Below are positions 61,539-64,000 of a DNA stretch of 64,000 nucleotides, in pieces. Under the pieces are notes generated by a model. The model was given only the letters and a program-made list of their open reading frames with translations. It was not told where the DNA came from and did no database searches. The position numbers were made by a program, and so were the translations under genes. Every line of letters begins with the position of its first letter. Position 1 is the first letter of the stretch. This stretch comes from Niallia taxi (GTDB lineage Bacteria > Bacillota > Bacilli > Bacillales > Cytobacillaceae). The stretch is taken from NCBI RefSeq assembly GCF_032818155.1, contig NZ_CP102589.1:1722001-1786000 (forward strand), in the 5' to 3' direction.

Positions 61539-61568
61539 GAACCTGTAAAAAATTGCAGGTTCTTTTTA
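61539..61568 (+). terminator. Terminator after the GDPD gene
   Basis: GAACCTG / CAGGTTC with a ten-base loop and TTTTTATTTTT. Confidence 0.85.
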
Positions 61569-61631
61569 TTTTTATTAATGTAAGCGTTCTATACAGAGTA
61601 GTTGTCTGAATAAATAAATATTAAGAAAAAA

Positions 61632-61661
61632 TTTGCATGGATTTGCAAAAGTGTTTATAGT
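61632..61661 (+). promoter_or_regulatory. Sigma-A promoter with inverted repeat, upstream of the BkdR-like gene
   Basis: TTGCAT (61,633-61,638), 17-base spacer and TATAGT (61,656-61,661). The inverted repeat TTTGCA-N6-TGCAAA (61,632-61,649) overlaps the -35 and spacer. No -24/-12 sigma-54 promoter was seen. Confidence 0.6.
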
Positions 61662-61700
61662 ATAGATATGAAATAAATTGCACGGTAGAAAATATGATGA

Positions 61701-61721: not shown

Positions 61722-63359
61722 ATGGATCTGTCTTATCAATCAATAGAGCAATCCATCTTTCAGGAATTAAAAGAAGCTGTCATCCTGATTGATAAACACG
61801 GAAAAATCGTTTGCTATAACCAACAGGCTAAAGTTGTTGCTCAAAGTCAGCACAGCCGGGAATTATCTATGCATGCACATATTCTTGACGTATTTCCAAA
61901 AAGTGAACTGATGAGAGTTCTGCAGACAAAAAAGGCAGAAATAAGAAAGTTGTTTCGTCTAAATGACACACTGTCTGTTCACGTATCCCGTTTTCCGCTT
62001 TTAGATAATGCAGGGGAACTACTCGGAGCAGCCGCTATCATTCAACAGGACGGAGCTTCTGCAGAAAATAACTGGCAGATCGATGAATACATACAAGAAG
62101 GCATGCAGACAGTTTTGCAAAATACATCACAGGCTTTTGTAATTTTGAATGAGCACGGATTTACTATTTTGCAAAATCCTGCACACGAGAAATTTTTGCT
62201 CACGCTGCAAAAAGACAGTGCCGCAGAAGCTGTTTGGAAACAGAAGCTAGAAGAGGTGTGTAAGAAGACACTTCAAACAAGACGAATGGTCGAAGAGAAG
62301 ATTAGGGGCGAATCAATGGAAGGCAGTGTTAAATGTCTTCCTAACTTAATAGATGGTGTGCTGAAGGGCTGTATTCTGTTCATTGACCACAATATGGAGC
62401 AAGCGGAGCTGAGGAAGAAACTAGAGCAATCAAGAAGGATTATTCGCGCACTGGAAACGCAAAGCCGGTTCAAGGATTTTACGATAAACTCTGCGAGAAT
62501 GAAAATGGCAGTCCAGCAAGGGAAAATTGCTGCAGATATGGATTATCCCGTTTTTTTGAGAGGGGCTGCAGGAACTGGCAAGAAGATGCTTGCAAATGCC
62601 ATTCATAATGACGGGAAAAGAAGATATCAAGCATTTACTGTTGTTGATTGTTTGAAGGATGAGGGAAAGCTTGCAGACTATTTGGGCAGGATGAGTAGTA
62701 AGGATATTTCCAGTCATCCGCAAGGAACCGTATATTTTAAAAATATTACAGCATTACCCTTGAACCAACAAATGCAGCTGCATCAAATTGCTCTTAACAG
62801 TCAGGGAAATGCAGCTGTCTACCGTTTGATTGTTTCCTCTGATGTAAATGTAGAAACAGCTATGATAGAAGGCGCCTTCCAGAAAGAGCTTTATTATGAC
62901 CTGTTGCAAACAAGCATCCATATGCCAGCATTAAAAGAAAGAAAAGAAGACATCGCTCCACTTGTGGAAGAGTGGATTCAGATTGGCAATGAGGAATATG
63001 GTAGCTGTATAACGTCCATTGACCCAGCAGCAATGGAAGTGCTGCAAAATTTCCCATACAATAATAATTTCAAAGAATTGCGGGCAAGTTTAGAGCATTC
63101 ACTTGCAAAATTAGATAGAGGGACAACTACATTAAGTGTTAGTCATCTTGCTTTTTTTGCCAATGCTAAGAACAACCAAGAAGAAAGTAATCCTGATACT
63201 GGGGATAAGCCTCTTTCTGAGCTGGTTGAAGAATATGAAAAGGTCATTATAAAAAAGACAATGGCGGAGCTTGATGGTAATAAGACACTTACTGCAAAAA
63301 AATTAGGCTTATCCGTTCGGAATTTATATTATAAATTGGAAAAATACCAATTGAACTAG
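61722..63359 (+). CDS. bkdR: BkdR-like regulator with degenerate sigma-54 activator domain
   Basis: A 545-residue protein laid out as a sigma-54-dependent activator: PAS-like N-terminus (about 1-110), a second sensor region (115-225), an AAA+ domain (about 265-430), and a Fis-type helix-turn-helix end ([23 protein letters not shown]). The Walker A loop GAAGTGKK is present. The GAFTGA loop that contacts sigma-54 is missing, together with the surrounding segment, between [16 protein letters not shown] and HPQGTVYF. The Walker B position normally reading FLDEI is YFKNI, without acidic residues. [10 protein letters not shown] is kept. It probably regulates without sigma-54 and ATP hydrolysis. Its place before a buk-like gene corresponds to bkdR of branched-chain keto-acid catabolism. 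Confidence 0.88.
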
Positions 63360-63388: not shown

Positions 63389-64000
63389 ATGAAGAAAAAA
63401 CATCGCATATTAATCATAAATCCGAAAGCGGATGCAACTGCTATTGCATTATATGAGAATGAAGTACCCATCTTTGAACAATCTATCATACAGGAGGATA
63501 CAAAAGGTTATTCTGCTGTCTCGCTTCAAGCACCAGCTCGGACCAAAAAAATTCTTGATTTTCTTTTGTCAGAAGGCATTAACCTATCCAAAATTAATGC
63601 TGTTGCCGGAAGAGGCGGGCTGCTAAAGCCGATTAAAGGCGGTACATACATGGTTAACGACGAGATGCTAGAAGACCTGAGAGCTGGTGAAAGAGGAGAG
63701 CACGCCTCCAATTTAGGAGGAATTATTGCTGCAGACATTGCTAGTGGATTGAATATCCCTGCATTTATTGTTGACCCTGTTGTCGTTGATGAGCTAGATG
63801 ATGTAGCAAGGATATCAGGCTATCCACTCATCTCAAGAAAAAGTGTATTTCATGCACTGAATCATAAAGCATGCGGAAGAAGAGCTGCCATGGAGCTTGG
63901 CAAGCGCTATGAGGACTGTCATTTTATTGTGGCACATCTTGGCGATGGGATTACGATAGGGGCGCACAAGCAAGGCAAGGTCATTGACGTGAATAATGGT
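63389..64000 (+). CDS. buk: Butyrate kinase-like protein, degenerate, 3' end outside window
   Basis: 204 codons are visible from ATG 63389, after GGGGAGGA. The sequence clearly belongs to the acetate/butyrate kinase family: HRILIINP at the start, [58 protein letters not shown] and [14 protein letters not shown]. However, the family signature NPGSTSTK reads NPKADATA, and the second glycine loop, normally LGGGIS, reads LGDGIT. It may therefore be inactive as a kinase. It follows the BkdR-like gene by 29 bases; ptb and bcd, expected between them in B. subtilis order, are missing. Confidence 0.88.

Follow-up and report, generated by a model that had tools for sequence, protein, structure and literature searches.

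How does a regulator of a sigma-54 activator family work in a genome that lacks sigma-54? The question is raised by a gene in the window, the whole stretch of DNA analysed here: 64,000 nucleotides of Niallia taxi contig NZ_CP102589.1, from a genome of 5.29 Mb in 3 contigs (G000 below). The sequence-only reading had described the gene product as a BkdR-like regulator with the GAFTGA segment deleted and the Walker B acidic pair replaced, and had proposed that it acts as a repressor or activator in a sigma-A context. The gene and the relevant parts of its product are located as follows.

61722..63359, + strand: BkdR orthologue, sigma-54-uncoupled; 545 aa, in the order two PAS-like units, degenerate AAA+, lid, Fis HTH
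62562..62582, + strand: Walker A GAAGTGK, residues 281-287, kept
62676..62720, + strand: expected place of the GAFTGA loop 1, from alignment; loop deleted
62733..62747, + strand: former Walker B, YFKNI for FLDEI, from alignment
62877..62903, + strand: former arginine-finger segment, FQKELYYDL for FREDLYYRL, from alignment
63225..63347, + strand: Fis-type HTH (HTH_8), near invariant within the genus

By gene order the protein is the BkdR orthologue of this Niallia genome. It lies immediately before the bkd genes, a position found at 21 loci, and both its recognition HTH and an operator of the TGAAA-N4-TTGCA type are conserved, bearing out the BkdR-like assignment. An N. taxi entry was 97% identical to it. 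The best NCBIfam match was named 'sigma-54 dependent transcriptional regulator PrdR' (167.9 bits against a cut-off of 795), and such proteins are easily taken for sigma-54 activators. A structure model contained two PAS-like units, of which the first fell under the Pfam cut-off and the second was unreported. Alignment confirmed that the GAFTGA segment is deleted and that YFKNI replaces the Walker B pair. The protein also lacks both arginines of FREDLYYRL, which we take, from PspF, to be the arginine fingers, and an N-terminal Rossmann-like domain present in both canonical BkdR proteins scanned (L024, L041).

The degenerate protein is under purifying selection. The bkdR gene is present in all 13 same-genus genomes and GAFTGA is lost in all 13. 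Whole-protein dN/dS (NG86) was 0.09-0.17 in nine same-genus pairs, not near 1: 0.09 for G000/G002, 0.098 for G000/G006, 0.09 for G002/G006, 0.154 for G011/G005, 0.129 for G000/G005, 0.116 for G000/G011, 0.172 for G012/G007, 0.149 for G001/G008 and 0.137 for G001/G009. Values for the HTH were 0.018-0.152 in the eight of nine pairs that gave one, and the highest for any single domain was 0.367 (lid, G011/G005). The degenerate AAA+ domain is still constrained, since its dN/dS was 0.09-0.198. The proposed check for a clade-wide deletion kept by selection thus came out in favour of the rewired role. A pseudogene or assembly error was rejected on the motif alignment, the near-invariant HTH and the dN/dS values.

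Whether the genome has sigL at all, a check proposed with the first description, was answered in the negative. Profile searches of G000 found neither Sigma54_DBD nor Sigma54_CBD, the second domain searched. Sigma54_DBD was missing from 11/13 same-genus genomes and present in 85/88 other relatives. With gene names assigned by reading, rpoN lies between clpP and cggR-gapA-pgk in G015, G021 and G090, and adjoins cggR in G024. The clpP-cggR interval of G000, G001, G005 and G007 contained no rpoN and no ORF longer than 164 aa. A hidden sigma-54 in G000 was rejected, both domains being negative and the usual site empty.

Only two rpoN genes were found among the 13 same-genus genomes, in G005 (L090 18632-19987) and G007 (L092 11795-13117). 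The former belongs to a polysaccharide/mannose-PTS island, with a LevR-like activator that has GAFTGA about 15 kb away; the latter is 2 kb from another bEBP, one with the motif GSFTGS. Three genomes of two genera, G040, G049 and G056, carry a second rpoN copy, and the G007 protein grouped with these copies in an RpoN tree (100/100), where the G005 protein was a long branch of unsure placement. Both genes, away from cggR, look like acquired private sigma-54 modules. BkdR is degenerate in these two rpoN-carrying genomes as well.

The surroundings of bkdR in the window contain these features.

61539..61562, + strand: hairpin resembling an intrinsic terminator, after the preceding gene, which reads as GDPD-like (1 found, 0.1 expected)
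61624..61637, + strand: second operator-like site AGAAAAAATTTGCA, over the -35 hexamer, 45 bp from the first site
61633..61638, + strand: -35 hexamer TTGCAT of a predicted sigma-A-type promoter with a 17-nt spacer, present in 13/13 same-genus upstream regions
61656..61661, + strand: -10 hexamer TATAGT, from the conserved block and a promoter scan
61668..61682, + strand: putative BkdR-type operator ATGAAATAAATTGCA, its TGAAA starting 7 nt beyond the -10 box
63389..64000, + strand: buk (butyrate kinase), by butyr_kinase match, 29 nt after bkdR and continuing beyond the window end

A GDPD-like gene of about 240 aa stands upstream of bkdR in most loci, and in the window the terminator-like hairpin would separate it from the bkdR transcript. 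After buk come lpdV, bkdAA, bkdAB and bkdB, named from translations read by eye. At the canonical loci examined, and in the sigma-54-less G073 and G078, two ORFs stand between bkdR and the genes from buk onward, the first encoding about 300 aa and the second about 364-379 aa; L102, L104, L105 and L107 differ in that at least one of the two was short, merged or uncalled. The first reads as ptb, confirmed by TIGR02706 in G019, and the second we take, from Bacillus, to be bcd. Both are missing from 11/13 same-genus loci, and G003 and G004 also lack buk. No same-genus genome reached the TIGR02706 cut-off (0/13; best 53-60 bits against 410.5). G138 (399 bits) and G144 (379 bits) fell narrowly short of it.

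The region upstream of bkdR is conserved across the genus. All 13 same-genus upstream regions read TTGCAT-N17-TATAGT and then ATGAAA-N4-TTGCA, and the 45-bp spacing of the two operator-like sites recurred in the 12 other genomes. A mechanical scan gave TTTGCA, with an 18-nt spacer, as the -35 hexamer. Taken alone, the window promoter match does not exceed what shuffles give (1 found, 1.4 expected). Under a fixed sigma-A rule (mostly TTGTCA-N17) the same-genus TTGCAT, with 3/6 matches, falls below threshold, and only G010 of the 13 was tallied, through another promoter reading. The promoter case for the genus therefore rests on the conserved block, because TTGCAT is too weak for the fixed rule. 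Across the wider set described below, this rule called a promoter and operator pair in 54/76 GAFTGA-positive and 25/49 GAFTGA-negative genomes, and the operator lay 0-20 nt past the -10 box in 52/54 and 24/25 of these, respectively.

The operator was scored as TGAAA-N4-TTGCA or its reverse complement with at most one mismatch, so that TGCAA-N4-TTGCA counts, a pattern defined after the sequences were read. Upstream of bkdR it occurred in 63/81 rpoN-positive (1.5 expected from base-composition shuffles) and 40/44 rpoN-negative genomes (0.8 expected). Just behind bkdR it occurred in 70/81 rpoN-positive (1.0 expected) versus 7/44 rpoN-negative genomes (0.6 expected). The exact pattern was found 10 times in G000, against 2 for a reversed control, and by eye only the bkdR copy adjoins such a promoter. 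A cre-like site for CcpA was considered for the control region and dropped; the window upstream region has none even at two mismatches. Elsewhere, cre-like sites with one mismatch were found upstream in 7/49 GAFTGA-negative genomes (0.5 expected) and behind the gene in 5/76 GAFTGA-positive genomes (0.3 expected).

We then compared GAFTGA, the sigma-54 promoter and rpoN across the order. Sigma54_DBD was found in 348/397 genomes, with the best 9 candidates per genome scored; 29 of the 49 rpoN-negative genomes were identified by absence among the positives listed. A BkdR alignment was used to search 47 genomes, 46 rpoN-negative plus G343, whose sole match was marginal (E 4.7e-4). Of these, 32 matched and 30 gave a locus, leaving out 17 (15 without a match, and G120 and G136 without a locus). 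Joined to 95 of 101 relatives (G067, G074, G076, G081, G095 and G097 had a weak, broken or unfetched match), they gave a set of 125 genomes with one BkdR-type protein each. A Sigma54_CBD search of 51 genomes was positive in six (G005, G007, G061, G090, G096 and G099), all positive earlier; a recheck of all 44 genomes counted as rpoN-negative found none positive.

With GAFTGA taken as G[AGSTC][FY][TS]G[AS], the motif GAF[TS]GA was kept in 75/81 rpoN-positive versus 1/44 rpoN-negative genomes. A -24/-12 promoter, called at 9 or more of 11 scored positions with GG and GC obligatory and no more than 450 nt behind bkdR, was likewise present in 75/81 versus 1/44, and shuffles passed in 2.2% of trials. 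The two features agreed in 125/125 genomes, 76 with both and 49 with neither, because the exceptions to rpoN are the same genomes for each. Six of these carry rpoN and lack both features (G005, G007, G024, G090, G092 and G099). The seventh, G033, has both whilst rpoN was not found; this is probably an assembly gap (94% complete, 220 contigs). Orthology is weak in five rpoN-negative rows (G118, G151, G178, G211 and G313, scores 143-323 versus 515-806 in the other rpoN-negative rows).

The agreement between GAFTGA and promoter is strong by count, and independent events are few. A quick BkdR tree (90/125 rows, motif columns removed) is rough, with long branches; mapping the GAFTGA label onto it takes 6 changes, and starred branches force 4 of these. 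An independent-pair test of rpoN against GAFTGA on starred branches gave 7 pairs, with 1-3 changing the same way, 0 opposite and 4-6 showing no difference, and was not significant. For GAFTGA against the promoter, 4 pairs changed the same way and 0 opposite (p 0.125).

Among the exceptions, G024 and G090 keep rpoN beside cggR whilst their BkdR lacks GAFTGA and its promoter; in G092 and G099 rpoN is located elsewhere than the cggR site. These genomes suggest, short of proof, that rpoN loss can come after BkdR has parted from sigma-54. A PutR-like regulator of G024 is also without GAFTGA. The rpoN of G090 (L278 3870-5141) lies beside cggR on a branch of length 2.19, in a genome whose BkdR has no sigma-54 promoter; perhaps this is sigma-54 on its way out.

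The decay of the ATPase is nested. With Walker B counted as D followed by E or D, 76/76 GAFTGA-positive proteins kept Walker B and both arginines. Among the 49 GAFTGA-negative proteins, 10 kept all of these, 4 had lost one arginine, 18 had lost both arginines and kept Walker B, and 17 had lost both together with Walker B; in 0/49 was Walker B lost with an arginine left. These counts are inflated by related genomes, family f40 alone supplying 12 rows. GxxxxGK of Walker A was kept in 125/125. GAFTGA thus goes before the arginine fingers and these before Walker B, and Walker A is never lost. In G445 (L210), a sigma-54-less genome of another family, an in-frame TAA splits bkdR.

Taken together, the sequences indicate that BkdR has probably been turned from a sigma-54 activator into a ligand-relieved repressor at a sigma-A promoter. 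Ancestrally, an operator past the -10 box of its own sigma-A promoter would have served autorepression, whilst from a second site near the -24/-12 promoter BkdR would have acted as the ATP-hydrolysing activator of ptb-bcd-buk-lpdV-bkdAA-AB-B. The lineage would then have lost sigma-54, the second operator, the -24/-12 promoter, ptb and bcd, bringing buk to 29 nt behind bkdR; a single deletion could have taken all but the first of these together. We infer this order of losses and the switch from the sequences compared. The whole operon would presumably now be transcribed from the bkdR promoter at 61633-61661. BkdR may bind the kept operator at 61668-61682, and perhaps also 61624-61637 over the -35 hexamer, blocking transcription until it is released by a signal that its PAS-like units sense. 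As parts needed only for ATP hydrolysis and sigma-54 remodelling, GAFTGA, the arginine fingers and Walker B would have decayed, and Walker A was probably retained so that bound nucleotide can set assembly or DNA affinity. An ancestral autorepressor whose sigma-A promoter now drives the whole operon would fit, because the operator position just past the -10 box is kept with and without sigma-54.

The earlier proposal of a repressor or activator in a sigma-A context is supported by the absence of sigma-54, the clade-wide loss of GAFTGA under purifying selection, and the predicted sigma-A-type promoter and operator-like site upstream. The choice narrows to a repressor because the operator lies just past the -10 box. 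An activator like Rhodobacter capsulatus NtrC, contacting the housekeeping polymerase from the -35 site with ATP bound and unhydrolysed, is the main alternative, unlikely but deserving weight: the operator-like site over the -35 hexamer occurs in 13/13 same-genus genomes at 45 bp from the main site, TTGCAT is further from consensus than the order-common TTGTCA, as an activated promoter might be, and Walker A is kept in 125/125. The R. capsulatus protein is itself reported to activate at sigma-70 without GAFTGA, requiring ATP binding and not hydrolysis (PMC10274813). However, the best-conserved operator is in a repressing position, and it occupies that position also in lineages whose BkdR has kept a sigma-54 promoter as its target.

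We consider it very improbable that the protein is a relic that has lost most of its function and is on its way out while the operon is constitutive. Its motifs and N-terminal domain have been progressively lost and a stop interrupts bkdR in G445 of another family, but the dN/dS values of the whole protein (0.09-0.17) and of the HTH (0.018-0.152, 8/9 pairs), the near-invariant HTH and operator, and the persistence of the gene in 13/13 same-genus genomes argue against decay. That a missed or divergent sigma-54 is present, with which the protein works in an unusual way, is scarcely credible. The rpoN genes of G005 and G007 (2/13 same-genus genomes) might favour it, but each lies away from the usual locus and near an activator of its own (about 15 kb off in G005, 2 kb in G007), BkdR is degenerate in both genomes, and the G007 gene clusters with the second copies found in G040, G049 and G056. 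In G000 two sigma-54 domains are negative, the usual locus is empty and there is no -24/-12 promoter.

The ligand-relieved repressor may be one outcome of a broader pattern, to which we give about an even chance. Sigma-54 would be discarded by a repeatable route, in which the operon fuses to the regulator's autorepressed sigma-A promoter, the motor is shed in a set sequence, first GAFTGA, next the arginine fingers and last Walker B, and a nucleotide-binding, ligand-relieved repressor survives, in several independent branches and sometimes before rpoN loss. If so, the BkdR route may help to make rpoN dispensable.

The B. thuringiensis bkd promoter is reported to depend on sigma-54 and BkdR (HD73_4469) (PMC4428206). 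The Niallia protein resembles Bacillus BkdR (B. thuringiensis HD73_4469, B. subtilis) in its place before the bkd genes and its order of PAS-like units, AAA+ and HTH, with the HTH and operator type of canonical genomes of the order. Unlike BkdR in canonical members of the order, it lacks GAFTGA, Walker B, the arginine fingers and the Rossmann-like domain, and its locus lacks the second operator, the -24/-12 promoter, ptb and bcd, in a genome without rpoN.

The nearest described behaviours are those of Caulobacter NtrC, an autorepressor, and R. capsulatus NtrC, which needs ATP binding and not hydrolysis (PMC10274813). The Caulobacter protein has no GAFTGA and reportedly represses its own operon (PMC10274813; also PMC12421884). 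Both, like the Niallia protein, are described as bEBP homologues without GAFTGA; they act at sigma-70 promoters, whilst here the promoter is predicted. As described, these NtrC proteins are response regulators, unlike BkdR. Caulobacter NtrC is reported to keep and need Walker B, which BkdR here lacks, and Caulobacter, unlike G000, to have other GAFTGA activators and sigma-54-dependent genes (PMC10274813). Vibrio cholerae VpsR binds c-di-GMP, going by the title of 7v2b, and is described as controlling polysaccharide production, not an amino acid operon.

GAFTGA-less regulators are already known as a kind, because passages of Francke et al. 2011 (PMC3162934) describe TyrR, DhaR, HupR and YplP as GAFTGA-defective EBP homologues, and suggest a move to sigma-70 for altered EBPs in Fusobacterium nucleatum and Jannaschia sp. 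CCS1, which have no sigma-54. These are single cases, and the passages contain no linked -24/-12 loss or repeated ordered decay. In the titles and abstract openings of open-licence literature we found no description of such a loss series of GAFTGA, promoter and rpoN, and the open-licence literature yielded nothing on Niallia with sigma-54. Here one orthologue was tracked over 125 genomes and its contact-loop loss coincides exactly with loss of the sigma-54 promoter. The genomes form a natural gradient of ATPase decay: the hydrolysis parts disappear in order and Walker A stays. Two questions become testable with them, how a lineage affords the loss of sigma-54 and what purpose nucleotide binding serves in a non-hydrolysing bEBP.

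BkdR is not the only altered activator in this genome. A PF25601 search found two further bEBP-like proteins in G000. The first, a PutR-like regulator (L010 2476-4149), adjoins genes for proline dehydrogenase, P5C dehydrogenase and PutP (read by eye) and has KASFTED for GAFTGA and IENI at Walker B. Ten same-genus orthologues, its own included, lack GAFTGA whilst 13 homologues from other genera keep GA[FY][TS]G; no orthologue reached threshold in G003, G004 or G010. The second, a PrpR_N-type regulator on contig 2 (L012 2111-3886), has no GAFTGA and has FIKNI at Walker B, which parallels the YFKNI of the window protein. All three bEBP-like proteins found in G000 are thus without GAFTGA, as the PutR-like, PrpR_N-type and BkdR proteins each lack it. 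A further group of regulators in G012, G009, G008 and G007 (L096, L069, L070 and L093) shows no loop 1 in the alignment and has an unusual Walker A context, IGKSGTGKK. Its one scanned member (L093) is of PrpR_N type, and the group is apparently another retired activator of the genus.
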